From Hymenobacter sp. (lineage in GTDB: Bacteria > Bacteroidota > Bacteroidia > Cytophagales > Hymenobacteraceae), in the NCBI GenBank assembly GCA_028288445.1, contig JAQBNT010000138.1:1-64000 (forward strand): a stretch of DNA of 64,000 nt. Direction: 5' to 3'. Of the stretch, positions 872 to 33,004 are shown piece after piece (positions within the stretch are counted from its first letter, which is position 1; every line of letters begins with the position of its first letter). The translations under genes and the position numbers were made by a program. The notes below the pieces were generated by a model. It did no database searches. It saw nothing but the letters and a program-made list of their open reading frames with translations, and had not been told where the DNA came from.

Positions 872-1828
872 CTACCCCAGGGCCAGCGCCAGCGCCTGGG
901 CAAAGCGGTCGGCCACCCGGCCAAAGCCCTGCGGCGTGGGATGCAGCTCGTTGGCCCACCAATCCTCGTACGTGGGGCCGGTGGCGAGGGTGCCGCGCAG
1001 GTCCACGTACCGCACATGGGCAAACTCGCGGGCCACCCGCCCCAGCATGTCGTTGAAGCGGTCCATGAGCTTTTTGGCGATGTCCTTGCGCGCCTCCAGG
1101 CTTTGGTAGCCCTTCTGGCGGAAGCCGGGGGCCAGCCACGGGCCCGGCAGCGGCCCCCAGCCGCCCAGAAAGCCCCGGCCATCGGGCACGGGGTGGTCGT
1201 AGCCGTGGATGAGAATGGGCAGGGGCCGCCCTAGGCGCTGCTGGCAGATGTCGGTAACGGCCTGCACGATGCGCAGGTAGGACAAGTACACCCGCTGGTC
1301 GATGATGCCCGCCACCACGCCATCGTTGAGGCCCGCCGCCACGGAATCGGCGTGGTCAAGCAGCATGTGAAACTCGTCGCCCGCCACGTCGTTGCCCCCG
1401 CCCGATAGCAGGATGGCCCGCGGCACCGCGCCGCGCCGCAGCAGCTTGTCGATGCGCCGCGTGAAATCCTCCAGCTGGCCGTCGTTGTAGGCCATGTCCT
1501 CCACCCGGTCGCCCTTGTGGGCCACCGACTCCACCTCGTAGCCATGCGCATCCTCCAGCTCGGACAGCACGTCGTGCATCGGGTAGTCGAACCAGGAATC
1601 CCCCTCGGCCACCAGCACCCCGGCCCCCGCCGGGGGGCCCAGCGCCGCCAGCACCTTCGGGGCTACCGCCGGGGCCGCCCCGAGGGCCTCCACGCCGAGC
1701 TGCCTGGCACGGGCATCGAGGGTCGTTTGCCGGGTTTGGAGGGCTTCGGCGCGGTGTTGCAGCACACGCTTGGCCTGCTGCTTGCCCTGGGCGCGGGCGC
1801 GGGCGGTGAGGTCGGGTTTCTGGGCCAT
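872..1828 (-). CDS. SGNH/GDSL-family hydrolase
   Basis: This 318-residue protein is probably an esterase or lipase-type hydrolase. Block I is EGDSWFDYP with the nucleophile near Ser78. Block III is SGGGNDVAG with the oxyanion-hole Asn. The C-terminal block V reads NELHPTPQGF and supplies the catalytic His. Many family members have Asp three residues before that His; here it is Asn, which may weaken or re-route the relay. Residues 1-60 are basic and helical, with no signal peptide. It is the last gene of the long minus-strand block and follows the first metalloprotease by about 50 bp. The substrate is unknown. Confidence 0.85.
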   Translation of the reverse strand: MAQKPDLTARARAQGKQQAKRVLQHRAEALQTRQTTLDARARQLGVEALGAAPAVAPKVLAALGPPAGAGVLVAEGDSWFDYPMHDVLSELEDAHGYEVESVAHKGDRVEDMAYNDGQLEDFTRRIDKLLRRGAVPRAILLSGGGNDVAGDEFHMLLDHADSVAAGLNDGVVAGIIDQRVYLSYLRIVQAVTDICQQRLGRPLPILIHGYDHPVPDGRGFLGGWGPLPGPWLAPGFRQKGYQSLEARKDIAKKLMDRFNDMLGRVAREFAHVRYVDLRGTLATGPTYEDWWANELHPTPQGFGRVADRFAQALALALG

Positions 1829-1880
1829 GGGCGTACAGTATTTTGAAAAATGAGCAGCGTATCGGGGGTATTGCTTTACA

Positions 1881-3038
1881 CTACTTGCGCGGATAAATGC
1901 GTGCTACTAATGCCCTATCACTGGGCGAGAGGCCATTTATCACGGATTTTACTTTGCCATCTGTCAATTGTGAAGGAAACTCATACATCATAATTGAATT
2001 CGCGTCAAAATTTCGATATGGCCCTAATTGGGTTTTAGAAACCGGGGTTAATAGATTGTTTTTTATGTCTTCTCGGCTCCAGAAATAAGGGGGACTCTCA
2101 TACAAAGCATACACTTTCTTCTCATTCCATGGAAATTGAGTATATGGGTTTTGAAATTCGTGAATCAATCCCAGTGCATGCCCAAAGTCATGTAATACAT
2201 TAGTCTCAGATACCCAGCCGTAGTTAATAGTGGGCTTATCTGCGGGTATGCCTAGAGCATCTGTCCCAATGTAAGACCATGAACCTTCTGCCGTAGTAAA
2301 GCTGATTCTTATTTGTGCATCCCCTTGTTCGACGAATTGAAAGCGCAGGTTGACAAATGGGAGCCATTTCATAATAATGTTCCGCACTTTCGCTCGATTA
2401 ACGTTAGACCCGCCTAAGAATTTAATTTTCAGAATTGTACCAACTGGCCAGTATTTGAATCCGTGACCAAATTTCTCCGGCTCTTGATTTTTTTTCTGCG
2501 CTAGTTCAATGGTTTCCCCTTCCGTTTTTTTCCTGATGTCATTAATCATCTTTTCATCAGTTACGGCCTGCTCTCTAAGTGTCTGCACTTCTGCTGCCAG
2601 ACTACGCACGTTCTGCTCCTGCCTATTTACCGCCGCTTCAGTGCTATCAATGCGAAGTTTCTCAAGCTTCACCTCAACCAATAGCTTTTCCAACGAATTT
2701 TTGATGGTATTCGCGGCGACAACAGATTTTTTTGCTTCTTCTACGGAGTCTTTTGCTTCCGCTACCGATTTCTTCAATTCGAAGCCATAAAGAGAGGCTC
2801 CTACTATTGCAAAAATGCCCAACAATGTTCCGGCAAATTTGCTGAAGCTTACCAGCGCGTCATCAACGATATAGACGGTCTTGCCTTTTTCCGCAAATGG
2901 TTTCCCATCGGTTGATACTTGTCCTGGCTGCGCCGGCAGCAGCTGTGACTGGCAGTAGCGGCATTTGATAGCGTCCGCATGCACCTGTTCCTTGCAAAAA
3001 GGACAGCTCTTAGCGGGAGGAGGAGTTGGCTCAGCCAT
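1881..3038 (-). CDS. Zinc-ribbon, membrane-anchored astacin-like metalloprotease with an altered active site
   Basis: The ATG at 3038 gives 385 residues. A zinc ribbon (C12-x2-C15, C26-x2-C29) is followed by one membrane segment (about residues 62-85), a long coiled coil (about 85-175) and an astacin/M12-type catalytic domain. The zinc motif reads HDFGHALGLIHE at residues 283-294: the general-base Glu of HExxH is Asp (codon GAC at 2189-2187). A Met-turn, NSIMMYEFP, is present. Its two neighbours keep a normal HExxH, so this copy may be inactive or slow, perhaps acting as a sensor or binding protein. Its base composition is clearly more AT-rich than neighbouring genes, which suggests separate acquisition. 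Confidence 0.8.
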   Translation of the reverse strand: MAEPTPPPAKSCPFCKEQVHADAIKCRYCQSQLLPAQPGQVSTDGKPFAEKGKTVYIVDDALVSFSKFAGTLLGIFAIVGASLYGFELKKSVAEAKDSVEEAKKSVVAANTIKNSLEKLLVEVKLEKLRIDSTEAAVNRQEQNVRSLAAEVQTLREQAVTDEKMINDIRKKTEGETIELAQKKNQEPEKFGHGFKYWPVGTILKIKFLGGSNVNRAKVRNIIMKWLPFVNLRFQFVEQGDAQIRISFTTAEGSWSYIGTDALGIPADKPTINYGWVSETNVLHDFGHALGLIHEFQNPYTQFPWNEKKVYALYESPPYFWSREDIKNNLLTPVSKTQLGPYRNFDANSIMMYEFPSQLTDGKVKSVINGLSPSDRALVARIYPRK

Positions 3039-3160
3039 CAATTGAAAAGTTACTTAGAGCATGTTTCCGCAGCAAAATCGAAGTTGCGCCTGTTGCTACT
3101 ACCTTGGTAACCTTGGCAGGAGCGGCTGCACAAGTGCCGACTATCACCGGCCAGCCCCAC

Positions 3161-4312
3161 TCACGGCTCAAACATCATAACCGAAGGAGGTATCCCGGAT
3201 TCACGGTACTTGACGCGAACGCGCAACATGTACCGATGCCCCCGGAACAGCTTTAGGTACAGCAACGCATTTTTTTCCAGGCCACTGTCATCATCCGCCG
3301 TGCGGTAGCGGTGCTCCTTGTTCTCATATTCGAACAAGGCAAGCAGAATGTCGCTTTTTCCAAATGTTCGGATGTCGTAATACCGCGTTTCAGGGGGGGT
3401 AATGATGAAATTGGCTTGGCCACCATTAACCAGGTCCAAGGGCATGGACTGGTTGACGACCAACTGGGGCGCTTTGGCTAGTAGGGACGGGTAGTTTTGC
3501 TGCGCCCACCGCTTGTCATCTTCCGAGAGCTTGCCGGGCGGGTTCAGGCCATCCCGCCAGTAGTTGGCCGGCCTTCGTATCAGGCCGGGGGGAAACGCGT
3601 ATTCCATCACCGAGTCAGGGTCCCAGCGCGTGCTTTTTACTTGGTTCCGCTCCAGCCGTTTGAGGATGTTCAGGTCTATGGTTTCCTGCGACCAGTTGTA
3701 GGGGCTCTGAGAGTAAAGCGTATACACCGCGTTTGTGTCGAATTCGATATCGGCAAACGGATTCATGTGCTCGTGCGGCAGCCCCAGCGTGTGCCCGATT
3801 TCGTGCAAGGCCGTGGCCAGCCCATCGGCACCGCGCAGGTCCCAGCCGAAATTCATGGTGCGCGTGGCCGGGTCGCGGCGCTCCTTGCTCACAATTTCAG
3901 TTCCGGTGTACGACCAAGCACCATCAGCCAGCATAAAGCCAATGCGAATTTCGGCATCTTCGCGGTGCTTCACTTCGACAAACTCCAGCCCAATTCCGAC
4001 GTTTTTCCAAATAGCGAAGGCTTCCCGCACCACATCCTGCTGCGCGATATTGCCGACCCATGTAACGGGCGAAAACTGGTGGTCGTCCTGTTCAACCTGG
4101 CTGAGGTCGCGCTTCTTGTCATTAAAAAAATAGTAGTGCAGCACGGTTCCATTGGCCCATACGTTGGCTTGGGCAATAATGGCGTGGGCCCGGGCGGCGT
4201 TAAGGGTATCGGGCAAGGGCGGCAGGTGCGGGTGCCGCGAGCTGCACAATGGCACCGGCAATAGGGTCGGGTCAGGGGCAGCTTGCGCGGGGGTAGCAGC
4301 AGAGGTGACCAT
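3161..4312 (-). CDS. Astacin-like (M12-type) zinc metalloprotease
   Basis: This 383-residue protein has the motif HEIGHTLGLPHEHMNP starting at His170, which gives three zinc ligands and the catalytic Glu171, and a Met-turn DSVMEYAFP further on. It lies in tandem with two paralogues, and all three share a [GS]-x-W-S-Y-x-G-T-[DE] segment before the active site. Residues from about 285 form a C-terminal beta domain, perhaps a pre-peptidase-like or binding module. The N-terminus (MVTSAATPAQAAPDP) lacks a hydrophobic core, so it is not a classical signal peptide. The gene contains a C7 run (3393-3399 on the other strand). The substrate is unknown. Confidence 0.85.
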   Translation of the reverse strand: MVTSAATPAQAAPDPTLLPVPLCSSRHPHLPPLPDTLNAARAHAIIAQANVWANGTVLHYYFFNDKKRDLSQVEQDDHQFSPVTWVGNIAQQDVVREAFAIWKNVGIGLEFVEVKHREDAEIRIGFMLADGAWSYTGTEIVSKERRDPATRTMNFGWDLRGADGLATALHEIGHTLGLPHEHMNPFADIEFDTNAVYTLYSQSPYNWSQETIDLNILKRLERNQVKSTRWDPDSVMEYAFPPGLIRRPANYWRDGLNPPGKLSEDDKRWAQQNYPSLLAKAPQLVVNQSMPLDLVNGGQANFIITPPETRYYDIRTFGKSDILLALFEYENKEHRYRTADDDSGLEKNALLYLKLFRGHRYMLRVRVKYRESGIPPSVMMFEP

Positions 4313-4381: not shown

Positions 4382-4717
4382 TTAGTATTCTCCTTCTTTG
4401 GGAGGGAGACTCACGGTGATAGTTACCAGATGCGTTTCGGGGGGGCGGCCCATCATTACAGCCGACGTAAAGAGTTTCAGCCCGGCCTGGCCGGGCTGTA
4501 AGGCCTCGACCGTTACCGTGTTGGGAAGGCCTGCTGGGTGAGGACCTGATGCCAATTTCGTTGTACTCGTTCGCAGGGAGGGACTCCGTAGCTCAACTAT
4601 CCCCTGGCCGTGCGCTAGCACGGCACCCGTCGCCCAAAAGTGGGCGGTGTCGCCAACTATCAGGGCGAGCTTATCAGGAATGTTTGGGCGCCCGGGCACT
4701 TCTACTTGCTTGCCCAC
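4382..4717 (-). CDS. Small Ig-like domain protein, possibly the detached C-terminus of the metalloprotease
   Basis: The 111 residues look like one beta-sandwich module ending LVTITVSLPPKEGEY. The start is GTG at 4717, only two codons after the TAA of the upstream metalloprotease and in the same frame. It could be an independently translated subunit, or the C-terminal domain of a longer protease separated by a nonsense mutation. No signal peptide or membrane segment is visible. A C7 run lies within it (4439-4445 on the other strand). No function is recognised. Confidence 0.5.
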   Translation of the reverse strand: MGKQVEVPGRPNIPDKLALIVGDTAHFWATGAVLAHGQGIVELRSPSLRTSTTKLASGPHPAGLPNTVTVEALQPGQAGLKLFTSAVMMGRPPETHLVTITVSLPPKEGEY

Positions 4718-4720
4718 GGA

Positions 4721-5659
4721 TTATATAAGCGTTGCTTGATTGAATTCGTCCAGCAGGTCCATCGAAAAGTGTTGGCCATTTACTCCGGGCCCGGCCGGCC
4801 CGGCCATGGCCGCCGGCTGGGCGATACCTCGGGTTCCGGGGGGGGTAGCAGCCTTGGCGGCCGTTTTAGGATACATCCGACCTGCGAACGCGTAGTCCGT
4901 TGGGTTGATGTCTTTCCCGCCTGGAATGCCAACGCCGTCTTTCATTATTTCGCCCGGCAGCTGGTAGCACATGATGGACGTGTCATCGGGCGGCGTCCCC
5001 ATCGTACTTGTCTGGTCGAGTGGCGTAAGCACCTGGGCATCTACGGTGGCCCGGTCCCAGCCCTGGTTGTTCCAAAAATAGGTATACGCTTCTTTCGGGT
5101 CAATGCGGCTCACCAGTTCCTTACGCATGTGCTCGTGTTCGAAACCCAGAGTATGTCCGGTTTCGTGGCGAACTACGCGCTTATACTCGTCCTCCGAAAT
5201 GTCCATGGAGAATCCTTCCAGATTCATCGTTGGCTCGTGCTTATCGACCAGCATGATGTCTGTTCCGACGTAGGACCAGTACCCCCCCGGTCCAAACGAG
5301 ATGCGCACCTGACCGATTCCGGAGCCCGCGTGCTTGAACGTAATGCCACAGGTCTTATTCCAGGCATTCATGTGGCTGATAATGCGGTCCTGAAGGTCGC
5401 GCCGCTTGTCGCCCTGAAAGCTAACCGTAAAGGTGCGATGCTGCGCATCCCATCTTTTACCGATTTGCATAATGGCCATCATCGGTACGGGATGTGGAGA
5501 GCCGTTGCTGGGGACTGGCTTCACCAGCGAGGCATTGAGCGGGTTGATGGCGACGGCGGCATGTACGGCATCCTGCTGCTGGTGGTCGGAGAGTCTTTTC
5601 ACCGTGCAGGGCTTCACATCGGCCTGCGGAAGGGCTTCGTTTTTTACTGTGGTGCTCAT
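4721..5659 (-). CDS. Astacin-like (M12-type) zinc metalloprotease
   Basis: This 312-residue protein has HETGHTLGFEHEHMRKE from His165, with Glu166 as general base, and a Met-turn TSIMCYQLP, both typical of astacins. The segment GPGGYWSYVGTDIM precedes the active site as in its two paralogues downstream. No signal peptide is evident. The coding strand holds a C8 tract (4838-4845) near the C-terminus and a G7 tract (5282-5288), both prone to slippage. The reading frame stays open after the TAA and becomes the small Ig-like ORF. The tail after about residue 270 is Ala/Pro/Gly-rich and looks like a linker. Confidence 0.85.
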   Translation of the reverse strand: MSTTVKNEALPQADVKPCTVKRLSDHQQQDAVHAAVAINPLNASLVKPVPSNGSPHPVPMMAIMQIGKRWDAQHRTFTVSFQGDKRRDLQDRIISHMNAWNKTCGITFKHAGSGIGQVRISFGPGGYWSYVGTDIMLVDKHEPTMNLEGFSMDISEDEYKRVVRHETGHTLGFEHEHMRKELVSRIDPKEAYTYFWNNQGWDRATVDAQVLTPLDQTSTMGTPPDDTSIMCYQLPGEIMKDGVGIPGGKDINPTDYAFAGRMYPKTAAKAATPPGTRGIAQPAAMAGPAGPGVNGQHFSMDLLDEFNQATLI

Positions 5660-5879
5660 GACATTGAAAAAATCAGAGGGTAAGAGATGAGGAAGATTTC
5701 CGGGACTGCACCGCCTACGTGTGGCTGCCGTTGCGGCGGCTCATGACCACGGCGCACCAATGGGCTATGCTTTGCCCCCGGCTCGGCAAGGATTAGCCCC
5801 GGCCGCTACTCCGGCCAGGCCGTCTGGATGCCAGGGGGGCACGCTGCCGATAAGCGTGCCGCCCACGATGCCCGGTGCG

Positions 5880-6245
5880 CTATTCGCAGTTGAGGCATAC
5901 TGGCAGTTTATTTGCAACGGTCTTTGCGCTACCTGCGGCATAATGCCCCATGCCAAACTCATCGTTTTCGTAGCCGCCTTGCGCCCGGTTGCTTCTTTGT
6001 CGATAGCCGACGATGCGCACGTTGATGGGTTCTGTTTCGATAGATGGAATGTCCTGTTCCGGCCTTTTTATTAGGGTTCGCCATGCGGCTGGCAGCGCTG
6101 CTGAACCGGCAGAAATGCCCGGCGGCACTCGGGCGTAAAAAGCGGCCGCGTCCTGCATGGCCGTGTGCAGGGCGGCGGCCAGATAGACCAAGCTGCCGGC
6201 GATGATGCTTAGCATCAGGCGCATGTACCAGTCGGTGGTTTTCAT
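5880..6245 (-). CDS. Small membrane-anchored hypothetical protein
   Basis: I chose the ATG at 6245 because a GGAG lies just upstream; an in-frame extension to 6284 has no such support. The 121-residue product starts MKTTDWYMRLMLSIIAG, with one hydrophobic segment at about residues 8-26. The remaining soluble part ends in a short strand-like segment, LPVCLNCE. Small one-helix proteins of this type are common in Hymenobacter-like genomes, but I know no function. It lies about 220 bp upstream of the metalloprotease trio and in the same direction. Confidence 0.55.
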   Translation of the reverse strand: MKTTDWYMRLMLSIIAGSLVYLAAALHTAMQDAAAFYARVPPGISAGSAALPAAWRTLIKRPEQDIPSIETEPINVRIVGYRQRSNRAQGGYENDEFGMGHYAAGSAKTVANKLPVCLNCE

Positions 6246-6346
6246 AAGTGCTCCATTTTTAAGGATTTGTCTTACACCAGCCAAGCCGCCTGGATGCCCC
6301 CTTCAGCAGCATGGCAACGAAACAGATGACGAGGCCGCTTCCGGTG

Positions 6347-6606
6347 CTAGGCAGCCCCGGCCCCAAAGGCCGGAATCAGAGCAGTGAGCACCGCCCGGAT
6401 GATAGGTTTGAGGTCGGCGTCGCCGAGGGTGGTAAAAGTGTCGTGGTGCGAAAGGGCCTGTGCCTTTTTTTCGATATGAAAGACGAGGTCGTCGTTGATA
6501 TCAGTGGCAGCGAGAATAGCAGGTATGAGGCGGGAGAGGTGAAGAGTTGACAGACTTAGCTGATGATGTCTTCGTTGAAGATTAGGGTATTGGTGAGTTC
6601 TTTAAA
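6347..6606 (-). pseudogene. Frameshifted small gene remnant
   Basis: Two adjacent minus-strand frames look protein-coding. The first reads FKELTNTLIFNEDIIS and stops at TAA (6558-6556). A second frame, overlapping that stop, reads on through LIPAILAATDINDDLVF and LGDADLKPIIRAVLTALIP to a TAG at 6349-6347. Neither has a convincing start. Together they resemble one small helical protein of about 80 residues broken by a frameshift. A sequencing error is an alternative explanation. No family is recognised. Confidence 0.4.
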
Positions 6607-6639
6607 CCTGCCCGGTTATTATCTCAGCGCCCGATTCCG

Positions 6640-6912
6640 CTATCTGCCGCAGCTGCATCCACCGGCTTTCGCAATCTTCTCCGCCCATTTTGCCTGTTTT
6701 CTCCCATACCGCGCATCGTTCACTTGACTGGCTTCGCGCAAGGTGCCGTAGATGCCGCAGTGGGTGGCTTGCAGCAGTTCCATGCCTGCGCGCGGTTCGT
6801 CATTTGCGGAAAATGGGGAGAGCGCTGAGGGCGAATAAAACAGCGCCATCCAGTTAGCGACTGAACTGCGGGTATTCCCAGAGGTAGCGAATGATGAAGG
6901 GCGAATCATCAT
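6640..6912 (-). CDS. Short hypothetical ORF downstream of a shared palindrome
   Basis: The ORF encodes 90 residues starting MMIRPSSFATSGN and ending in a basic, Cys-containing tail (KAGGCSCGR). Its second half looks more protein-like than the first. It has no recognised domain and would normally be doubtful. It is kept because the 16-bp palindrome found ahead of two other gene starts in this block sits 45 bp upstream of its ATG. It may be a fragment or a leader ORF. Confidence 0.3.
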   Translation of the reverse strand: MMIRPSSFATSGNTRSSVANWMALFYSPSALSPFSANDEPRAGMELLQATHCGIYGTLREASQVNDARYGRKQAKWAEKIAKAGGCSCGR

Positions 6913-6947
6913 GTGTTATGTATGACACAAAGAACTGCATAACACAT
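6911..6947. promoter_or_regulatory. 10-bp perfect inverted repeat over the 6912 start
   Basis: ATGTGTTATG (6911-6920) and CATAACACAT (6938-6947) are perfect reverse complements separated by 17 bp. The left arm touches the start codon of the 90-residue ORF. It could be an operator or an RNA hairpin in the leader. Confidence 0.4.
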
Positions 6948-6957
6948 ATTTATAGCA

Positions 6958-6973
6958 TCAGTGCCAGCACTGA
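6958..6973. promoter_or_regulatory. Putative operator, copy 1 (TCAGTGCCAGCACTGA)
   Basis: This is a perfect palindrome with 7-bp arms and a 2-bp centre, 45 bp upstream of the ORF starting at 6912. The core and a few flanking bases on each side are identical to the copy at 33078-33093. The tiny centre disfavours an RNA hairpin and fits a dimeric DNA-binding protein. Confidence 0.5.
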
Positions 6974-7047
6974 ATTCGGGTGTTGTTCGGGCATCGGCAA
7001 ACCCAGGTTGCCTGCCTTCAAAAGGGGTTAATTGAACCAGTACAGGT

Positions 7048-7179
7048 TCAGATGGCAGCAATCAGGACCCTTAAAATGGCATTCTTGGCCGCCACCGGGT
7101 CGTTAATTTCATCACGAGAGAAGCTGGCGTTTCCACTGCCAGCTCGATACTTCGGGAACGACAAGATTTGATGCAACGG
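7048..7179 (-). other. In-frame open tail after the protease stop codon (43 codons)
   Basis: Directly after the TAA of the trypsin-like protease the same frame stays open for 43 codons. It reads FPKYRAGSGNASFSRDE and then INDPVAAKNAILRVLIAAI before TGA. The composition looks coding and a TTG could serve as start. It may be a tiny separate ORF or an extension reached by readthrough or lost by mutation. Confidence 0.3.
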
Positions 7180-10508: not shown

Positions 10509-10509
10509 A

Positions 10510-24900: not shown

Positions 24901-27900
24901 ACTCAAAGTAAAAGAACAGCTCCAGCAACGGCTTTTGCTGAGCGGCAACCAGCGTTTGTAGGCGCTGGGGAGCGGCGGGAGCAGCCAGGGCTTGGCCGGC
25001 CGGCACGCAGGGAGTGGTAGTTCCCAGCTGCCAGTCGAAGCGCAGGGTGGTTGAAAAGCTGAGGCTAATCGATATTTGAAAGCGTTTGCCAAATATCTTA
25101 AAGCTGCCAATGACCAGCCTTATTTTGACATGCACACCCGCCTCGATGAAAAGCAGGGTGGCCTGGTTGGTCTGCAGCCGAAAGCCCGTCGACACTTCCA
25201 CCAGAATGTGTATTGAGGCCTTGATGATGCCGAAATCAACGTAGCCATACACCTCGGCGATAATGCCCACCACGCCCGACAAATACAGCTCGTGCGGCTT
25301 GAGCACCGACTGGCCGGGCGCAAAGTTGGCCGCCCCTTCCAGCACGCCAAACACGCTCACCGAGAGCCCGGCTTTGAGCATACCCCGGTTGAACTGCCGG
25401 CCCAGCCCCACCCGCAGCGCAAAGCCCACGGCCACGGCCGGGTAGCTCTGCTCGCAAAACGTGTTGGGCACGCCCCCACGGGTCATGGCAAAGTAGAACC
25501 CGCCCCAGCCAATGAAGGGCCCCGCCTGTACCACGAAGGAGCGCGAGTAGTCCAGGCCCCGCGGAAAGCCGACATCTACCCGAAACCCGCCGTTGGTATA
25601 GATGGCCACAAACAGGCTGGGCACCGTGATGGCTACCGCGCCAAAGTCCCAGTTGCGCAGGCTGTCGGGCAGGGTCAGGTCCGTAGACCATTCCCCCACG
25701 CCCGGCCCCAGCTTTTTGTACATGATGTCTACACTCAGGTTGCCCATGGTGGGCAGGTGCAGAAACAAGCCGTACAGCTCAGGGTCGTAAAGGGCCAGTG
25801 ATACGTCGAGCACCGAAAAAACGCCCTTTAGCCGCAGGGCAAACAGCCAGTCCAGCTTTTCGTTGTACTGCTGCAGGATTGCGGCCGTGACTGTAGCTGG
25901 CATGCCTTCGGGTGGCATGGCTGTATCAGGCTTCAAGGACCCCAGCAATTTCTCCATCGCGCCCACGGCCGCATCGGTTGTTGCCAGCTTGGTAAGCTGG
26001 CTGCTTTCTAAAAACCGCTGGCCCGCGCCGATAAAAATGTCCTCCTTTTCTTCCGCGTTGCTCTTGGTATAGCCAATTAGCCACGCCGTTTTGGGGGTTC
26101 GGGAGCCGGTCTTTTTCGGCCGGAAAATCAACGCACCAATTCGGCTGTCGGTCGATTTGGGGTACGACTGGCCCAGCAGGTCTACCCGAACGTCGGGGGA
26201 GTGAAAGAAGAGCTGGCCCGCCTCAAATCTGAGCGTAAGCTCGCGCAACGTAATGCGGATAAAGCTCTCAATGCCAATCTGCAAGTCCTTGCCCTCAAAA
26301 TCGGGGAACCGAATGCCGTAGGCCATCTGGTAAGTCCCTTGCCCAGGCTGCCAACCCAGGAAAACAGCGGCTTTGAGGTCTTTTAGTCCAGCGGCCAGCC
26401 CACCCAGTACGCCCAGGTTGAGCTCGAACGAAAAACCGAACTGGAAGTCAACGTTGGGCAGGTCCCCAATGCCAAAGCACTGGAAGCCCAGGCTGCCAAC
26501 GGAAAGCGGAATCGTGCTGAAATGAAACTGCTTGAATTTGAGCGGAAAAGCGCTGAGCAGGCTGTTGGCGGTGTCCCGCAGCCTGGCGCTGTCAAAATTG
26601 AATGACAGCTGCGGCATATCCAGCTTGATATTCGCCAAGCCATCTTTAAACCAGCACAGGGCCAGATTGCTAAAGTCAATTTCCTGAATTGACAACAGGT
26701 CGATGGGCAGGTCGGGCAGGTTGCCGCTGTTGAAGTAGAGCTTGCCATCGATGGTAAACTGAAACTGCTGCTTATCACCGCTTTTGCTGCCCGTATATTC
26801 TATGCGGTTCAGCTGGATTTTTTGCAGGAGCGAGGTAGCCGGAAAATCCAGCTGATAGCTGGTGTCGGCGGCAAACACATACCGCTCCCCGTCCGGCCCG
26901 TTGCTGTAGGTGCCGCGCAGTACAATCAGCTGCTCCGGGTCGGCTAAGGCTTCGGCAAACAGGTGTTTGATTTTCAGCTTAATCGTGCAGCGAAAATCGA
27001 CAATCTCCGCGTTGCGGAATAGGATAAACAGCTCGCTAACCTGATAATCCGCTAACTGCTCGGGGGGCGACGGCTCAAAATCATCCGGGTTCTCGTAGGA
27101 AATAAGCGCCGTGAAGGAAGGCTTGCGCACTTCCAGCTGGCGGATATCACTCAGGACTTGGCTGCCCTCAAACGCGAGGCAGGTCAGCGACACGGGTACG
27201 CCCCGCATCAGCTCCTTGATAACGGAGGGAAGCTGCACCGGTGTATCCATCACCAGCATGCCCCGCCAGTGGGGCGCGTTGAGAATATCGTGCAGCAGCT
27301 CCTTCACGGCCGGTTTCTGCTGCACCCTGGCCAGGTAGTCATCCACTCCCTCTTTAAGCTCTTTGACCCCCGTCCGGTAAGAGGCGTAATTGCTCCACAA
27401 TCCCGTTTGCTCAAGGAGCTGGTTCAGGGGCTGGTCGTGGTATTTTTGGAGGAAGTAGCCGGCTTCCGCCACTTTGTCGAACCAGTCGAAAACGTATTCC
27501 TCGTCCAGAATGCGGATTCGCAGCTTGGTTTGCAGCTCCCGGCCCAGGGAGTGCCGCTTGGCGCTCGTCACGAGCATGAGCTGGTCGCGCAGCAGGGACT
27601 TGATGTAGTCTTCATCGGGCTCGCGGATGAAAACAAACTGCTCTATCTCTTTGCGCAACTGCAACAGCGGTTGCCCAGCATGCAGGGTGTGGCCCTCTAC
27701 GCTAGCTGAAAACAGTAGAAAATAGTAGTGTTCCCGACCTTCTAGCTCGGCATACACAATTACAAATCCTTGGGGCGTGACGCGGAAATAGCAAAGCGGG
27801 TCGGGGTCGGCCGCCACCAGGGCCGTTACCCTGAGTGCGGCCGGCTGCGTGGCGATAAACGCGTGGCGGGCCGGCGACACCATTAGCTCTTCGAGCTTTG

Positions 27901-29293
27901 GCCCCCAGCCGGACGCTAAGCCCGGGGCCATGCCGGCCAAAGGCAGCAGGGGAAATACCAGGGGCTGGCCCAGCGGCAGCGCACCGGTTTCTACGGCTAC
28001 CAGCGTGGCGGCCGGCGCATCGGCCAGGGCTTCGGCGGCAGCCAGGCCGCGGGCCGCCGGCTCATAAAAAAGGTGTTTTTCGGCCTCGTTCACGTAGCGC
28101 AGCGGCTGGCTGGCCACTACCTGCACCCAGCTGGTCGAGCCCGGTTTTAGCGCGGGCTTCGCCGTTCCCAGGCGGTGGGCGGGCTCCAGGGCTGTGTCAA
28201 AGGCAGGCGCTTTGGCCGCATCAAAAACGGTCGGCACGAAGGAGGCGTTGCCCGCCACAAACCGCAGGCGGGCCTCGGCGCTTCCCGGAATCCGCAGGTA
28301 CTGGCTGCCCGTCTGGCTGAGCAGAATCTGCCAGTCCGCCCCGCCATTGTCGAGCAGCTGAAAGTCGCCCTGGGGCGCAAAGTAGCTTTTGGTGCTGTCG
28401 TCGGTGTCGGAGGGCTGCTGCTGAATAACAAACCGCGGCGGCTGCACATCGGCGGCGGGCGCTGGCACGCGCACGCGCACCGGCGCGCCATTGCTCTGGG
28501 TGAAGGCGGTGGCAAAGTCGGCCGCCGACTCGATGGCAATGTGCGTGGCGGCGCTGTGCTTGGAGTTGCCAAACGGATGCGCTTCCAGGATTAGGGAAAC
28601 ATCCGACGGGGGAGAGCTGGCCGATGCAAAAAATGCAAACGGTAGGTAAGCGGCCTCCTTTTCCCCTTCCGTGTGTTGGTAGTGAAAGAGTACGCCGATG
28701 TGGTCGGTTGGAGCTGTGGAAGCAAGAATTTCATTTACCGCCAGCACCAGCCGGCCGGCCTGTGGCCCGGTTAGCGGCACTGTCACTGCTGCTTGCACCG
28801 GCAGCTGCGCATCAAGCCCCGACCCTAAACTCTGAATAGTGGCTTCATTCTGCTCAAACAGAATCCGGTCATCGGAAAAAGTGATTTTAGCCGAGGAAAT
28901 AATATCAAGCTTAAACCCAAAGCTTTGAAAGGGTTCATTAACAACTATGCTGCTTGGCTGCCCGCCTGTAGTAGCGGCATTCACATACACGTATCCATTT
29001 CCACCTTGCCGCCCTTGCTCATCTACCGCAACTATGAATGAGAGTTGGCCCGCAACGGGAGGATGGAGAATATACGCTGCTATGCTGGCAAGCACTGACG
29101 CGGGAAAATCCTCGGCGCGATAAGCGGCCGGCAGCAGAATGACGCCCAGCTTGTTCTGGCTCCATAATACCGGCAGGTTGTCCAGCGTCTCGCCGCCGTT
29201 CTGATGCCAGAACAGGTAAGGTAATGCTGACTGTCCGAGACCGTCGCGAACCCCATACAGATGTGGCGTGCCTGGTAGTTTATAAGCTTTCAT
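18998..29293 (-). CDS. Giant 3431-residue protein with C-terminal M15-like peptidase domain
   Basis: This is one uninterrupted frame of 3431 residues. Its start overlaps the lipoprotein stop by 14 bp. There is no N-terminal signal. About residues 930-1420 are dense in alternating hydrophobic strands and Gly (for example VGFALRVGLGRQFNRG and GYVDFGIIKASIHILVEV). This suggests a beta-barrel, groove or long beta solenoid; from memory it recalls large proteins annotated with DUF6603, unverified. Residues from about 1500 to 3200 are Ala/Leu/Pro-rich. The last 140 residues hold TSTYRSKAYNQ, SFHQRFQAIDF and FVHLDTRG, matching the zinc site of M15 D-Ala-D-Ala carboxypeptidases. I infer a large delivery or scaffold protein ending in a peptidoglycan peptidase. 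Confidence 0.75.
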   Translation of the reverse strand: MKAYKLPGTPHLYGVRDGLGQSALPYLFWHQNGGETLDNLPVLWSQNKLGVILLPAAYRAEDFPASVLASIAAYILHPPVAGQLSFIVAVDEQGRQGGNGYVYVNAATTGGQPSSIVVNEPFQSFGFKLDIISSAKITFSDDRILFEQNEATIQSLGSGLDAQLPVQAAVTVPLTGPQAGRLVLAVNEILASTAPTDHIGVLFHYQHTEGEKEAAYLPFAFFASASSPPSDVSLILEAHPFGNSKHSAATHIAIESAADFATAFTQSNGAPVRVRVPAPAADVQPPRFVIQQQPSDTDDSTKSYFAPQGDFQLLDNGGADWQILLSQTGSQYLRIPGSAEARLRFVAGNASFVPTVFDAAKAPAFDTALEPAHRLGTAKPALKPGSTSWVQVVASQPLRYVNEAEKHLFYEPAARGLAAAEALADAPAATLVAVETGALPLGQPLVFPLLPLAGMAPGLASGWGPKLEELMVSPARHAFIATQPAALRVTALVAADPDPLCYFRVTPQGFVIVYAELEGREHYYFLLFSASVEGHTLHAGQPLLQLRKEIEQFVFIREPDEDYIKSLLRDQLMLVTSAKRHSLGRELQTKLRIRILDEEYVFDWFDKVAEAGYFLQKYHDQPLNQLLEQTGLWSNYASYRTGVKELKEGVDDYLARVQQKPAVKELLHDILNAPHWRGMLVMDTPVQLPSVIKELMRGVPVSLTCLAFEGSQVLSDIRQLEVRKPSFTALISYENPDDFEPSPPEQLADYQVSELFILFRNAEIVDFRCTIKLKIKHLFAEALADPEQLIVLRGTYSNGPDGERYVFAADTSYQLDFPATSLLQKIQLNRIEYTGSKSGDKQQFQFTIDGKLYFNSGNLPDLPIDLLSIQEIDFSNLALCWFKDGLANIKLDMPQLSFNFDSARLRDTANSLLSAFPLKFKQFHFSTIPLSVGSLGFQCFGIGDLPNVDFQFGFSFELNLGVLGGLAAGLKDLKAAVFLGWQPGQGTYQMAYGIRFPDFEGKDLQIGIESFIRITLRELTLRFEAGQLFFHSPDVRVDLLGQSYPKSTDSRIGALIFRPKKTGSRTPKTAWLIGYTKSNAEEKEDIFIGAGQRFLESSQLTKLATTDAAVGAMEKLLGSLKPDTAMPPEGMPATVTAAILQQYNEKLDWLFALRLKGVFSVLDVSLALYDPELYGLFLHLPTMGNLSVDIMYKKLGPGVGEWSTDLTLPDSLRNWDFGAVAITVPSLFVAIYTNGGFRVDVGFPRGLDYSRSFVVQAGPFIGWGGFYFAMTRGGVPNTFCEQSYPAVAVGFALRVGLGRQFNRGMLKAGLSVSVFGVLEGAANFAPGQSVLKPHELYLSGVVGIIAEVYGYVDFGIIKASIHILVEVSTGFRLQTNQATLLFIEAGVHVKIRLVIGSFKIFGKRFQISISLSFSTTLRFDWQLGTTTPCVPAGQALAAPAAPQRLQTLVAAQQKPLLELFFYFEYTQADGTLQALPMLSLAEKSVVNNADGRQYPLSFAALVGYLEDRIWQAAAAQVPGPAGAITYDNLREYEKTIAEQDYAQIFLGTAAETLFTYQFAGLAELRQDEVQAGVGYVASFFPMLPGVVLKSGLFSQDGGEIDYSRVQVSAGYKQALQQYFEQLFVHREASAAVDALAVAPPVALAQLMLEDYLEMLFKSVVDTHLARVEMAYQHAHSPDGPPAVQRFSSLPAAEQVKAYNDLNARINRFVRHGLQLPVDANFRLREPIFRYLKQQFPVGATPPEVALYYGGSRQLEVQPDYSPELSQVQLTEPLHSSVGPLLRWAHQDYTSGLTLAVLLRAAPNHKQGFIPVSAAVRSRLRQRLQPGQPRIPAPVFQLFRHHDQQVKSEVQVGYRPGTLLEFTVAPAASPGPGAADAGDFYALRGFTAERLLPLLDLLQAPATLREISLHYAAADELHAEYKLYTGSTAGIQLFKVNLSTESAPPIEDNGQRLLNTTDEAPEKYFAAASEPRAFLEILSASGIINQEGIFLQLPGLPATAAGRLSIALFVQSEPTAGSPADKPGALQPYHTHLHPAQELPDGMEYYWKTADWQQYIPVRPPAVVAFAVQRPAVVELPDSEPDKMKIARQTLENLYSLLDFTLQSQAAGQPDFQAIAGHNTLPVSPATKHEDEDTWHYEQGIRVPTPNGNRYERVGDVFRLAFGWRDVYGNPLAGLGFEGPPETLQYVDLLLGPNSWPGTVPAYTIPADNRVALTLSQGLQPEMWPANPTGQKAVANILSTYQQALEQQQGPGLTAIARVELRTSDGLPLAETRTELPAAPLLTTYLQGAIQALEDIRDGHFAQLTLAPVALRLTAAGTGTILVGFRAADERLAYLSNSPKLQVDGKDAAPGTYHLEQGVFVLDAKKMYQTYGQPKAEYVDVKLTLVSPWGLLLARQALTLPLGSTALSGLLNPAYLAVTIQTERAKKLVPAELHPDQLALTPSIVGADAVQQLLTEVLPGYAGATVSAKEASKPEHAFAEAVEQRLGGKTLRLGTGLDNAGQQRYWLIPRSWTDLRLTVKPTAPDYTVYAPRPVLNRLFSMTQKVDLPADSGSSLPATRASLDLDVLFRRVLLGLDRLLEHQQLPGLAAPLPAGPGPTALDELLAAKQAVARWYPTKRLASLYEGAPAAKLPEAQEGLRQQMLRKSEHAYLQDMVLSYRLQGPARMPSQPCRLQLEVQQQPVAPPADATDVSIAPLKVELAHDAPAPELLLKVNYTRNDFAPGSDPLISFQQTLVPTYLEHSIQKVDAPGAYEYSRWIKLHLADPAGARLDLRADKVQIVQRQYPALPAVSRHACLPEAALAGGTWPQLLQSTRRWRYQLELIGPSIGQDKGYVALYFGAQATFALQQAEAWNEAECIAAAAEVWTALEPRLQSPPDALTQALAVQFARYLRALETAPTVPEPAAGASQGLAGYRQTVHLAYRLVTKNGSVTGLYIQPAGDAAVLSGMADTTRKDSVELVYAAPDPQDATKSIEKRTSYSYLRTEAGEWLFGLDAGQPAVALTALRRVALLTPPLDLLDVTDAETGIYLTRNESLLQGKKIAKEYIYTTEEFRSARPLRPFVEHAAPLVYAQAGASRKPGCYALLHETFAALLETAGPLAAAPVVASCECYFLYKLPHQTDWLQATRRGIFLKESIAGSEPAMSTALAELSNELSGWAQEFRPVGEGALGLDITLSLNAGPLLLHLPYVVLPLSAFTFEPTAKPAALTAQASTPALPPDLLQDVVGRLDTIQQLLLAQTPLPDDLHDQAELTDNNQNLTGPLALPLASSQDQRLEQFIDGLQLAHFRGREFTPYWSRVHNGVQNSIPPEELWPNIVPTLVVLNALRQQLGASITLTSTYRSKAYNQAVGGEPNSFHQRFQAIDFTCAAGSPCSWAAALRQYRNTLFTNPHTGETFRFQGGIGTYRRQNFVHLDTRGSQANWYGKGDSPCPTT

Positions 29294-30710
29294 CGGTATA
29301 GATTCTGTCGCCAGCTTTTAAGTAGAATTTGCCGAAGGAAGCCCGGAGGGAATCGGTGCCAGGGAAGCGCACCTGGGTGTAGCTCGCCTCGGAGGGGCGC
29401 TCTACCCGCACCTGCTTCAGGGGCTTTTTCTGGAGTTGAGCCTGCCCTAGGGAGTCACTCAGCACGTTTAGAAGTGTGCTGCCAAGCCTGGCAAATCCTT
29501 TTTTGCCGTTCAGATAGTAGGGCACTTCCACCGCTATCTGCGCAGGCCAGATATAGAAAGACCTCTCTGGTAGTTTCCTGCTTGGAGTGGCCATACTGGC
29601 GGCAAGCTTTTCCCAGGAAGCGCCGCAGGTGAAGCTGGTTTTTGGCGAACTATTGTACCACATATCCGGGTCACTGAGCTTAGCAGCATAGGTCATCGAT
29701 AGCAGTGCCGGGACCGTATCGGTTTGAATGCTGATGTAGCGCGCCGAAAATGCGTTTAGCTGGCAGAGACTCTTAAAAAAGGTGATGCCTAGTTTCTTTT
29801 TTAATTCGCTGGAATCTCGCGTTTCAGGGAAGGATTTATGATAGATAGCATCGTAGGCGCAATCGGCGAAATGCAGGCTTCCATCCATCGGGCTTACCCG
29901 AACAATGGTAGACTCGATAATACCTAGTGGCGAATACAGCCACTGGCTCCACGTTCTGTCCTGGGCGGGTGGGAAAGGCCGAACGGTAGGTGGCTTTGTC
30001 GTATCAATGACAACTGCAGCCTTGTTGAGCCGGCTGAACGTTGTTACTATTTTCAAATCCGGCACCACGAGCACGCTGTTTCTGCCGGGCAATGACGGGC
30101 CGGCATATTCCGTCAGGCTCAGGTGGGCCGGCTGGGGGGCCTGCTCAAATACGGTTCTTACTACCTCCTGCGGATGATGTCCCTTTGGCCAGTCGGCCTT
30201 TTGCCGCGCCTCGTCCAGCGCGATGCGTAGCTGCCCCAGCATCGCGTAAAAGCTGCGGTCGCTGGAGCCGGGGCCGTAGAGCTTATCCAGGTTGAGCACC
30301 ACGTACAGGTCGTTGCGGTGGCGGTGCACCGCCGTGTAGTCGTTGAAGGTTGAGCCGGCCAGCTTTAGCAAGCTAAACCGGTTGAATACTCGGGGCTTTA
30401 GCTTTTGCTTATTCAGCCACTCGTTGTAGGCCGAGGTTCTGGAGGGGCTTCCTTTTCCGGCAGCGGTCGGCGCTGGACTGGTATAGAAATCCTCTATCGG
30501 TACTACGTACAGCCCGGTCAGCACCCGGCTATCGAACTGCCCCCAGTACACATGGCCGGGAATGCGCCGCAGGTATGCCTGGGGCAGCAGGTACGCCTGG
30601 CCTTTAGCGGCGGCCCCGCCAATGTCAACCATCGTATAGCGCGCCGAATTGCAACCCGCCAGCAAGGCCAGCATCAGGCAAATGCCAGCTATAAAACGCG
30701 AACTGCCCAT
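29280..30710 (-). CDS. Lipoprotein of unknown function
   Basis: The ATG at 30710 (MGSSRFIAGICLMLALLAGC) gives a lipoprotein signal with lipobox LAGC and a mature N-terminal Cys; the upstream in-frame GTG at 30716 is less likely. The 476-residue product has no domain I recognise. Segments such as FNDYTAVHRHRNDLYVVLNL and KVLANLNL-like strands suggest an alpha/beta globular protein on the periplasmic face or the cell surface. It is the only gene in this block with a lipobox and overlaps the giant gene, so the two products probably work together, for example with this one as membrane docking site. Confidence 0.75.
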   Translation of the reverse strand: MGSSRFIAGICLMLALLAGCNSARYTMVDIGGAAAKGQAYLLPQAYLRRIPGHVYWGQFDSRVLTGLYVVPIEDFYTSPAPTAAGKGSPSRTSAYNEWLNKQKLKPRVFNRFSLLKLAGSTFNDYTAVHRHRNDLYVVLNLDKLYGPGSSDRSFYAMLGQLRIALDEARQKADWPKGHHPQEVVRTVFEQAPQPAHLSLTEYAGPSLPGRNSVLVVPDLKIVTTFSRLNKAAVVIDTTKPPTVRPFPPAQDRTWSQWLYSPLGIIESTIVRVSPMDGSLHFADCAYDAIYHKSFPETRDSSELKKKLGITFFKSLCQLNAFSARYISIQTDTVPALLSMTYAAKLSDPDMWYNSSPKTSFTCGASWEKLAASMATPSRKLPERSFYIWPAQIAVEVPYYLNGKKGFARLGSTLLNVLSDSLGQAQLQKKPLKQVRVERPSEASYTQVRFPGTDSLRASFGKFYLKAGDRIYTDESL

Positions 30711-30787
30711 GGCCACTAGCTAATTAGGGTTTTGTGTATGCTTGACCACCACCATGCCGCCGCAATGCCCGGACTGCCTGCGGGCTA

Positions 30788-31516
30788 TCAGGCCGTTTTG
30801 CTGCCGGTAGCGGCGGCCAGTTTGGTAAAGCCGTAAGGCAACACCCCAATGCCCAGCGACAGGAGCACCGTTACCAGGCCGTCGAAGGACGGAATGTTCT
30901 TGTCCGGGTAGGCAAAGGCATGGTAGATGCCGTAGGAGGCCAGCGAAATACCAATGGAAACCCCGGCGTAGCCCGACATGAACACAATCAGGCGGCTGGC
31001 ACTGGTTATGGGTTTGGCTACTTCGCTGGCGGGAGGCGTACCGTCGGCCCCTTCATTATTCACGGCTGGGTCCGACGCGTCTGGTTTAGGCTGTGTATCG
31101 GTGTTGGCCAGCGGCTGCGTAAAGGCCTCCGTAGCCACCGTCTTTCTGAGGGTGGTTTCGCTGGTCTGGTTCTGCTGAGCCAACGCGGCCATCGGCGCGT
31201 CTTGCCCTTGTTGAGCGGGGGTGTTGGTCTGCGGCTTAAGCACTTGCTGTACCACCGCTGTCCGCAGCAGTCGCGCGCGCTCGCCTTCTTTGTTAATCGT
31301 TTCTTTGTCAGCCAGGGCTCCTTCCAGGGTTATGTTGCTGCGCCACAGCCAGTACAGCATCATCAGGTGCATGAGTAGCGGGCCCAGCACAATTACCCAT
31401 TGCCCTCCCATTAAGCGTAACGGTTCATCCGCAGGGGCGGCCTGCGCAGCTAGCGGAGCGAACAAGGCCAAGAACACCAAACCGTGCCGGCCATGAAGGA
31501 AAGTGAGCGATGGCAT
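30788..31516 (-). CDS. Multi-pass membrane protein beside the muramidase
   Basis: The ATG at 31516 gives MPSLTFLHGRHGLVFLALFA, a signal-like segment with possible cleavage after AQA. Two alternative starts lie upstream. Further hydrophobic segments are WVIVLGPLLMHLMMLYWLW, RLIVFMSGYAGVSIGISL and LVTVLLSLGIGVLPYGF. A long Gln/Thr/Pro-rich hydrophilic loop separates the second and third. No family is recognised. Its size, topology and position after a GH25 muramidase and before a lipoprotein recall holin-like proteins, but this is context only. Confidence 0.65.
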   Translation of the reverse strand: MPSLTFLHGRHGLVFLALFAPLAAQAAPADEPLRLMGGQWVIVLGPLLMHLMMLYWLWRSNITLEGALADKETINKEGERARLLRTAVVQQVLKPQTNTPAQQGQDAPMAALAQQNQTSETTLRKTVATEAFTQPLANTDTQPKPDASDPAVNNEGADGTPPASEVAKPITSASRLIVFMSGYAGVSIGISLASYGIYHAFAYPDKNIPSFDGLVTVLLSLGIGVLPYGFTKLAAATGSKTA

Positions 31517-31618
31517 GTGCAGAAAGAAATGAAGGTGAAAGCACAAAAAGCACCCGTGCGAACCCGTTAGGGGCCTTACGCGTCGGAATATTCAGGCAGG
31601 CCTGGCCATGGCAGTGCC

Positions 31619-33004
31619 TTACCAGGGCCAGGCCTGCCTGAGCTGCGCCAGCGTGCCCTGAAACAGGCTGCGGTCGGCCCCGCTCGTGCCCGGCGTTGCG
31701 CGCGGCTCCGGCCCGCTCAGGCCATCCGTATATTGCCACAGGGTATAGGTGGGCCATATTTGCTGCGGAATGGCCAGCGGCTCTTTGGCGTAGCGGCTGT
31801 ACCAGAGCGGGCAGTTGGCCAGCACCGCATCGGGCTTGTTGCCCACGCTTTCGCGCAGCAGGCTTCCACCGTACACTACCGGCCAGCGCCCCGTACGCTC
31901 TTTAATAGTCCTGACGAACTGCTGGGCCTGCTGCTGGGTCATGTTGCTGCCCGCCGTGCTGGCTTCCCAGTCCAGGGCTATTACTTCGTCATTAGCCGGC
32001 TGGGCAAACTCCAGGAAGAACTCCGCCTGTCGCACCGGGTCATCGCCCGACGAATAGTGGTAGCACCCCCAAAGCAGCCCTTGCTCTTTGGCGAGCTTGC
32101 GGCGTTCGTGGTACGTTTTGTCCTTAAAGGCAAGGCCTTGCGTTGCTTTATGAATGACGGCCGCTACCCCCGCCGCCTTCACCCGCGCCATGTCGATGGT
32201 GTGGTGGTGAGAAGTATCGATGATGCCGCTAAAGCCGGCGGGCAGTGCAGTGGCTGCCAGGGCCGTGGGAGCCTGGGCAGGCGTCAGTTTCCGGGCAGCG
32301 GCCTCAAACTGACGGCTCATCTGCCGCAGATAAGCCGCCTGCCCGCGTAAGCTGGCGGCGCTTGCGTCCGGGCCTTCTACCAGCGCCAGCTGCAAAGCGG
32401 GAATAAGCCCGTCAACAACTGTCGCTTCCTGCTCAAACCGGGCCAGCAGTTTGGGCCGCGTATTGGGGCCGCTTTGGTCAAATACCCTTTTCCAGTTGTC
32501 GGCCCAGTAGGTAGCATGGGCGGCCGGACCGCTACCGATGACCCCGGGAATGGCCGCAAAGGCAATTCTGGCTAAGTAAATCCCGAACAGGTCGTTTGCT
32601 TTCGCCCCGCCCAGCAAATCTTGCAGCAGGTTGTCGGCCGGCCAGGATTGTCCGATATCGGCTGCCGCTTTTTCCAACGCCTCCGCCGTGCAATTGCCAA
32701 CCCTGGCTAGCTCCGTCAGAAATTTATCCGCCCCTTCCCGGCGTTTGGCGTAGGCCACGGCCTCTTTGGCGCGCAGTGGCTCAAACTGAAAAAAGCTTCG
32801 GCCGGGGCCGACCGGGTTTTGCTTCCGCTGTTTCAGAAAAGCTCCCTCGTGCCAGGCGACATGCAGTAAAAACCGCCGCAGATTGTCCTTCGAAATCTCA
32901 TTTTCATTGGGCAGAAAAAAATTGACGGCACTAGTCAGGAGGCCCCACATGGTAGCCACCCGTGCTTTATCTTTTCCAGCGGTATCAACGTTTTCTGCAG
33001 CCAT
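31619..33004 (-). CDS. GH25 (lysozyme-type) muramidase with helical N-terminal domain
   Basis: The 461-residue protein has a GH25 catalytic barrel from about residue 215. It starts FSGIIDTSHHHTIDMARVK, with the conserved Asp, and carries the catalytic D-x-E pair in VIALDWEAS near residue 345; WGCYHYSSGDDPVRQAEFF lies between. GH25 enzymes cut the MurNAc-GlcNAc bond of peptidoglycan. The first 210 residues are helical and contain WHEGAFLKQRKQNPVGPG, which looks like a second lysozyme- or transglycosylase-type region. There is no Sec signal. It heads the 33004-16324 unit and has a palindrome 73 bp upstream. Confidence 0.87.
   Translation of the reverse strand: MAAENVDTAGKDKARVATMWGLLTSAVNFFLPNENEISKDNLRRFLLHVAWHEGAFLKQRKQNPVGPGRSFFQFEPLRAKEAVAYAKRREGADKFLTELARVGNCTAEALEKAAADIGQSWPADNLLQDLLGGAKANDLFGIYLARIAFAAIPGVIGSGPAAHATYWADNWKRVFDQSGPNTRPKLLARFEQEATVVDGLIPALQLALVEGPDASAASLRGQAAYLRQMSRQFEAAARKLTPAQAPTALAATALPAGFSGIIDTSHHHTIDMARVKAAGVAAVIHKATQGLAFKDKTYHERRKLAKEQGLLWGCYHYSSGDDPVRQAEFFLEFAQPANDEVIALDWEASTAGSNMTQQQAQQFVRTIKERTGRWPVVYGGSLLRESVGNKPDAVLANCPLWYSRYAKEPLAIPQQIWPTYTLWQYTDGLSGPEPRATPGTSGADRSLFQGTLAQLRQAWPW

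Follow-up and report, generated by a model that had tools for sequence, protein, structure and literature searches.

We analysed the first 64 kb (the window) of contig JAQBNT010000138.1, a 73.8-kb contig in a 92.8% complete Hymenobacter sp. genome (GCA_028288445.1). Positions 872-33004 hold, all on the minus strand, 17 clear open reading frames (ORFs): according to Pfam, 13 encode enzymes and one encodes a 3431-aa giant with an M15_3 tail, and the scan gave no family for the other three products, of 111, 478 and 252 aa. The enzymes of this island fall into classes that cut proteins, DNA, lipids and the cell wall. We found that the island is a mosaic, low in GC, of three or more modules (a trypsin-NucA pair with an S8 subtilase; a block of HAD, phospholipase-D-like (PLD), DyP-type peroxidase and glycyl-radical enzyme (GRE) genes; and the giant) and not one conserved unit, and that its genes were probably acquired horizontally. 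Our preferred reading, held tentatively and at a little under even confidence, is that the mosaic consists of leaderless cell-destruction effectors that would act inside the cell producing them, at least to begin with.

The GC content of individual island genes was 44-63%, apart from an SGNH/GDSL hydrolase gene at one end (71%), compared with 65% for positions 33005-64000. Fifteen of the 16 gaps between the clear ORFs were 119 bp or shorter. The exception, 1520 bp long (5660-7179), sets the astacin genes apart from the remainder; it was examined for a decayed gene and none was convincing.

Leaders were called here and below with a crude hydropathy rule, not SignalP, which judges N-termini and not internal transmembrane segments. 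The rule works in principle, since secreted proteins elsewhere on the contig are flagged by it. Within the island it flagged the 478- and 252-aa proteins and one doubtful ORF (5880-6284) as having a leader or transmembrane N-terminus, and no leader was found in the remaining clear ORFs. The PLD protein, at 1.85, fell narrowly under the threshold of 1.9, and its H. cellulosilyticus homologue, at 2.19, narrowly over. All ORFs are longest-ORF calls, in which an over-called start could conceal a leader further in. Two minus-strand genes elsewhere in the window encode proteins with both a leader and a type IX secretion system (T9SS) C-terminal sorting domain, namely a DUF5122 beta-propeller protein (35030-37780) and an S8 subtilase (51256-54096; sorting domain below cut-off), the latter in contrast with the leaderless S8 of the island. 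An earlier sequence-only reading had described co-oriented degradative enzymes, an almost complete lack of leaders among them and T9SS proteins elsewhere in the window, all of which we confirmed. The M15-like peptidase that it listed is also present, as M15_3, but accounts for merely the last ~130 residues of the giant.

The trypsin-NucA pair

The core of the first module consists of a trypsin-like peptidase gene (Trypsin_2, 7180-8289; PF13365, E 1.9e-23) and, 9 bp away on the same strand, a gene for a VOC domain joined to NucA/Endonuclease_NS (8299-9762; PF01223, E 1.6e-45; PF00903, E 1.3e-9). The second ORF overlaps the HAD gene by 103 bp and its start is probably over-called. Further along lies the leaderless S8 subtilase (17060-18892; PF00082, E 6.6e-40), which has a relative, at 50%, in a different family of the order.

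Kaur et al. (eLife 2020, PMC7159879) describe a trypsin and NucA pair, encoded in the same operon or fused, as 'System 3' and propose a proteolytic cascade for it. They report that S8 sometimes accompanies the pair and that its EAD1-linked partners include lysozyme-like and papain-like enzymes acting on peptidoglycan. The CARD-NLR-like system LypABC of Caulobacter (PMC13236601) includes LypC, a trypsin-endonuclease protein that drives host lysis and is required for it by way of its protease; phospholipases or endonucleases serve in other CARD-NLR variants. Both System 3 and LypC are thought to act inside the cell. The island resembles System 3 in its adjacent Trypsin_2 and Endonuclease_NS genes, which are fused in alphaproteobacterial proteins, and in its S8 and peptidoglycan-degrading partners. 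It differs in coming from Bacteroidota, in having many more enzymes and S8 as a separate gene, and in that EAD1, a Death-like domain and a STAND NTPase were not seen. It differs from LypABC in having trypsin and nuclease as separate genes, and no CARD or NLR protein was found in it. Because System 3 and LypC match the pair while the sensor parts were not found, we call it, on its domains and gene order, System-3-like.

Relatives of the pair were found on rhizobial plasmids. On the Vaf10 plasmid of R. leguminosarum a 669-aa trypsin-NucA fusion matches both window proteins at 37-38% (37% for the trypsin part) and lies near a PLD homologue, an S1/P1 nuclease, a CHAT peptidase, an EEP protein and a heparin lyase. 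A Bradyrhizobium plasmid carries a similar fusion beside PLD, more serine proteases and an S1/P1 nuclease. Both fusions are leaderless, but of the proteins encoded around them the heparin lyase, a DUF3616 protein and one S1/P1 nuclease are not.

The HAD-PLD-DyP-GRE module and the remaining genes

The second module comprises four genes that overlap one another. The HAD-type protein (9660-10535) scored 25.0 bits against a Pfam cut-off of 27 and belongs to the PADLOC candidate-defence family PDC-S34 (E 2.4e-51), for which a literature search gave no paper. The PLD protein (10510-12291) has two PLD stretches (PF13091, E 5.6e-21) and homologues on plasmids. It is followed by the DyP-type peroxidase (12288-13745), assigned by Pfam, whose nearest solved relatives are EfeB-type and whose ORF start is probably over-called. 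The last gene encodes a PFL-like GRE homologue (13652-16213; PF02901, E 3.4e-105; PF01228, E 9.2e-4, just below cut-off) with Cys and Gly motifs: GCYE aligned to GCVE and RMGGW to RVAGY, the Gly segment scoring only 1.2 bits.

The whole module (9667-16213) gave one collinear 6.5-kb alignment, at 79.8%, with H. cellulosilyticus plasmid NZ_CP095048.1, where the annotation shows several of its genes split up or shortened. The plasmid also carries QatABCD and conjugation genes. About 1-8 kb from the module it has NucA remnants and two trypsin-like genes flanking one for an AAA_16-type NTPase, whose STAND matches are weak.

DyP and GRE also occur as a single polypeptide. In Asticcacaulis AND118 it has 1326 aa, is annotated as DyP and matches GRE from about residue 449; in genome G351 it has 1304 aa and contains both families by profile. 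A SUMF1-type gene lies near the fusion in both, and in G351 there are in addition a leaderless S8 and a protein homologous to the 252-aa island membrane protein (E 4.5e-11). On the R. leguminosarum plasmid, a 976-aa protein without Pfam match (21952-24882 of locus L131) aligns to the DyP portion of the fused DyP-GRE protein at locus L172 (E 4.8e-18). A GRE as similar as this (E 1e-50) was found in four of 296 Bacteroidota genomes, including the island's own. The island proteins share sequence families and GRE catalytic motifs with known glycyl-radical enzymes (PFL2/CutC type) and DyP/EfeB peroxidases but differ from them in that DyP and GRE are adjacent or fused, and in that no PFLE/PFLC-type activase was detected in the 92.8% complete genome (TIGR02494, the one activase model tried, no match at E 1e-3). 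The same model had matches in 13 of 14 control genomes, above cut-off in three, and GRE relatives in two further genomes (G197 and G313) have, as read by eye, an adjoining activase-like gene. Literature searches related to DyP-GRE gave no paper.

PLD was considered as a marker for the island and rejected. Homologues at E 1e-40 were found in 4/300 genomes of the order of Undibacterium and in 5/297 of that of Aurantimonas, and in none of the 11 whole-genome neighbourhoods (these nine with G472 and G474; two of the 11 stretches are shorter than 9 kb) was there another enzyme of our panel, save one DUF2278 about 8 kb away.

Three astacin-like genes lie beyond the 1520-bp gap. The first product (1881-3041; PF01400, E 3.9e-6) has, by eye, HDFGH where HExxH is expected and a zinc-ribbon match below cut-off (PF13248). 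The second (3161-4312), an astacin/matrixin metalloprotease, is a relative of NCBIfam AbsR1 (364 bits against a cut-off of 650), and among the AbsR1 literature matches listed there was no title concerning a protease. The third (4721-5659; PF01400, E 8.2e-8) is a leaderless metalloprotease, with the gene for the 111-aa protein (4382-4717) next to its own. The leaderless SGNH/GDSL hydrolase gene (872-1828; PF13472, E 2.1e-9) may, given its GC content, be native rather than part of the island. A leaderless N-acetylmuramoyl-L-alanine amidase (Amidase_2; PF01510, E 1.6e-20) is encoded at 16324-17010. At the other end lie the genes for the 478-aa protein with a lipoprotein-like leader (29280-30716), the 252-aa membrane protein (30788-31546) and a leaderless GH25 muramidase (31619-33004; PF01183, E 4.2e-30), the N-terminal part of which has no family. 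The 252-aa protein belongs to a rare family also present at locus L172 (phmmer, E 4.5e-11). Its gene was found in two of 395 Bacteroidota genomes (the island's own and G351), searched with a profile built from those same two proteins; in each of the two, DyP-GRE and a leaderless S8 are encoded close to it.

Outside the island the window encodes a 2695-aa protein (39008-47095, plus strand) that has a leader and also Ig_7, fn3 and BNR-neuraminidase N-terminal domains, and a MutS-like protein (47231-49081, minus) with a match to domain V and one below cut-off to domain III. There are three tandem-Usp genes (56174-56986, minus; 58992-59837 and 60825-61664, plus) and, near them, the gene for a fusion of a response regulator with a cNMP-binding and a Crp-type DNA-binding domain (62113-63168, minus).

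The giant protein and the A-X-B family

The giant (18998-29293) is the largest feature of the island. From Pfam, alignments and a structure model, its N-terminal ~1080 residues resemble a ~1200-aa protein, A; the following ~2050 (to ~3130) resemble a larger protein, B, with a predicted beta-barrel at ~1149-1423; and M15_3 occupies 3284-3412. In most bacteria carrying them, A and B are separate genes.

B was found on 8 of 72,556 plasmid records (tblastn). A contig scan with the giant's own sequence gave no match, whereas a profile of the B core matched, with 250 confirmed relatives in genome contigs. We kept the best 80 of these 250, together with six of the eight plasmid regions (H5 and H8 were left out), giving 86 loci. 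The best 80 came from Bacteroidota, Acidobacteria, Proteobacteria, Cyanobacteria, Actinobacteria, Firmicutes, Chloroflexi and others; B was present in 4/395 sampled Bacteroidota genomes, the island's own included. A was recognised at 82 of the 86 loci, as a separate gene at 77 and fused to B at five; the other four (L049, L077, L078 and L085) are short stretches that start near B.

In at least 60 of the 77 loci with a separate A, a same-strand gene of at least 110 aa, X, lies between A and B. This is a lower bound: at L075, L080 and L091 the start of an EEP-cluster ORF was over-called and overlaps A, in Tistrella (L011) an annotated 479-aa coding sequence between A and B was lost to an antisense ORF, and L092 and L079 have a similar antisense ORF. 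By type, the 60 loci comprise 42 with an EEP-type nuclease, eight with a metallo-beta-lactamase fold, five with a c9 and c10 pair, four with c8 and one unclassified. Pfam at E 1e-3 matched Exo_endo_phos in 18, Lactamase_B in five and Lactamase_B_2 in three of 70 X proteins; the remaining assignments rest on BLAST clusters and motifs read by eye. Two further genomes, G095 (A, a metallo-beta-lactamase-fold gene, B) and G179 (A, B), show the same gene order; another, G452, seems to be the one from which L067 comes. In Azospirillum B510 (L013, 11347-23637) a c8-type X seems to be fused to B, since the N-terminal third (residues 326-1131) of that B protein can be aligned with the c8-type X of Mycetohabitans (L012); by eye c8 looks like a candidate glycosyltransferase.

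No leader was found in any of 73 A, 80 B or five fused proteins, but leaders were present in 9/70 X proteins and in 43/146 proteins encoded upstream of A, so the parts may occupy different compartments. Small genes of clusters c1, c3, c4 and c16 lie upstream of A, often paired, with leaders in 12/41 c1 and 8/15 c3 proteins. LysM was present in seven of 12 scanned B proteins and Phage_BR0599 in one of them (E 4.5e-16); the window giant has neither by Pfam. No Pfam or NCBIfam family covered A or the B barrel in the members scanned, and no Rhs-, SpvB- or TcA-type Pfam match was found in the window giant, in six Tistrella proteins or in the 12 B proteins (three of which are A+B fusions). Literature searches related to A-X-B gave no paper; one further search gave only Tc, type VI secretion system and toxin papers.

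A model of the B region (giant residues 1085-2255) had a mean pLDDT of 67 and a pTM of 0.42. Its residues 81-340 were mostly at pLDDT 79-91 and formed antiparallel strands, long ones from 176 on. Among known structures (VIA-align), outer-membrane porins ranked first (Z 13.2, root-mean-square deviation 5.4 Å over 222 residues) and 188 chains reached a Z of at least 8; Foldseek gave no E-value below 0.03. Hydrophobicity alternation in the seven strands of at least 12 residues was 3.1, against a mean of 1.1, with none of 5000 shuffles as strong. We took the Foldseek rows for gasdermin, triglyceride-transfer and LptD proteins as generic long-strand matches. B is therefore predicted to have a porin-like beta-barrel. 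Because leaders are absent and some of the bacteria with members of the family have no outer membrane (Paenibacillus, Lysinibacillus, Streptomyces, Glycomyces), this barrel is probably not that of an ordinary outer-membrane protein in the producer. The model of A (pLDDT 83.8, pTM 0.70) gave no clear fold match: the best Foldseek row was 6bly (E 9.6e-4, probability 0.08), the best VIA Z was 5.2, and viral models gave nothing significant. Weak rows included SGS1 (E 0.016), teneurin-2 (0.21) and TcdB1-TccC2 (0.76), all at a probability of at most 0.03 and TM-scores below 0.1.

These features bear on a different account of the island, in which it is a toxin arsenal released by lysis or otherwise delivered, the A/B giant being a pore or translocation device with a barrel and a wall-binding or wall-cutting domain that brings enzymes into other cells, and the island enzymes its extended cargo. 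Tc toxins and Rhs proteins combine leaderless giant subunits with a variable enzyme, and A-X-B is like them in this idea only, as no sequence homology to them was detected. The interchangeable enzyme between A and B, the predicted barrel in proteins without leaders (also in Bacillota and Actinomycetota members), the LysM and M15 domains and the Tc/Rhs-type chains among the rows for A speak for delivery. Against it stand the very low scores of those rows, the missing Rhs and SpvB matches, the leaders on some X and upstream proteins, and the absence of BLAST matches (E 1e-3) between the 13 island enzymes and ORFs of the 86 B-encoding loci. We regard delivery as a doubtful explanation of the island. 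The fuller proposal is unlikely as a whole: A-X-B would be an undescribed, phylum-crossing device, its two giant leaderless proteins, one with the porin-like barrel and peptidoglycan-binding or -cutting domains, forming a pore-bearing complex that, once the producer had lysed, would carry an interchangeable enzyme (EEP nuclease, metallo-beta-lactamase-fold hydrolase or others) into target cells. In this Hymenobacter, where A and B are fused and M15 takes the position that LysM has in others, a battery of degradative enzymes would have been recruited.

Origin and possible action of the island

No examined neighbourhood holds the entire island, and a single conserved 32-kb system was rejected. 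The giant was found in only two of 79 close genomes (its own included), and no matches to the other island enzymes were found at the A-B loci or at the whole-genome PLD loci. The single arsenal proposed by the sequence-only reading is thus not supported. That reading had also matched the island to no known system, which does not hold for trypsin and NucA (with S8), since these correspond to System 3 and are LypC-like. Its own test was conserved gene order in relatives, and some order is indeed kept elsewhere, so the complete lack of synteny that would have spoken against it was not observed.

A mosaic could also arise as a hot spot of unrelated mobile genes with no joint function. The GC range among neighbouring genes and the separate distribution of the modules are consistent with such accretion, as are the S8 and PLD relatives that we looked at in other Cytophagales, which had no shared neighbours. 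On the other side, the genes are strongly biased to destructive enzymes on one strand, the HAD to GRE genes overlap and are collinear elsewhere, and both genomes with the 252-aa protein encode DyP-GRE and a leaderless S8 near it, which goes beyond chance. We think accretion rather improbable. Ordinary cytoplasmic turnover or stress enzymes gathered on an accessory element are a very improbable alternative: the enzymes are leaderless and DyP/EfeB-like and HAD enzymes are often housekeeping, but degradative families are usually secreted, the HAD-PLD-DyP-GRE module is spread on a plasmid and its GRE is rare.

Under the preferred reading of intracellular self-destruction, some trigger would switch on the trypsin-like protease, which would activate NucA, encoded next to it, and possibly further partners, as in the cascade proposed by Kaur et al. 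for System 3. PLD, S8, the amidase, GH25 and the M15-tailed giant would then degrade membrane, protein and wall. Cell death and lysis would limit phage or plasmid spread, the enzymes being freed as a by-product. DyP-GRE would be a co-inherited redox module. The island enzymes most likely lack leaders because they act first inside the dying cell. This is supported by the close spacing of trypsin and NucA with S8 in the same island, the rhizobial fusions, the descriptions of System 3 and LypABC, the low GC, the PDC-S34 HAD protein and the plasmid setting, with submodules recurring on plasmids and in other phyla. The trypsin-like genes, NTPase and NucA remnants close to the HAD-PLD-DyP-GRE module on the H. 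cellulosilyticus plasmid also speak for it. Homologues of island parts are likewise leaderless: the two trypsin-NucA and two DyP-GRE fusions, the S8 of G351 and two of three PLDs tested.

Several observations weigh against this reading. In LypABC (PMC13236601), lysis does not require the endonuclease activity of LypC. Pfam gave no NTPase, CARD or EAD match among island proteins (for EAD at E 0.1; presence of an EAD1 model in Pfam was not checked), and the NTPase of the H. cellulosilyticus plasmid, a single query without positive control, found no relative in the genome. The trypsin-like genes of that plasmid did not match the window trypsin at E 1e-4. Trypsin and NucA lay near PLD in three of nine plasmid neighbourhoods (one with NucA remnants only) and in 0/11 whole-genome ones, and the lack of island enzymes at the A-B loci counts here too. 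LamG and SUMF1 proteins, like the heparin lyase, DUF3616 protein and S1/P1 nuclease above, are exported neighbours of the modules in relatives, and so weigh against a purely cytoplasmic battery. Cytoplasmic wall enzymes would need a pore to reach the wall. Finally, given the 1520-bp gap, co-transcription of the island as a single transcript is not demonstrated.

The trypsin-NucA pair links protease-nuclease self-destruction systems, a predicted class with mostly alphaproteobacterial reports, to plasmid islands of Bacteroidota. The DyP-GRE pair raises the question whether a GRE homologue works with a peroxidase. On our best reading the A-X-B family, which joined the island as a separate family, is its most novel part: a large family of giant proteins defined by gene order, in which the enzyme between them is swapped. 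If the pair delivers the middle enzyme, it would be a toxin device of a new kind; action inside the cell would instead make it a new death effector.

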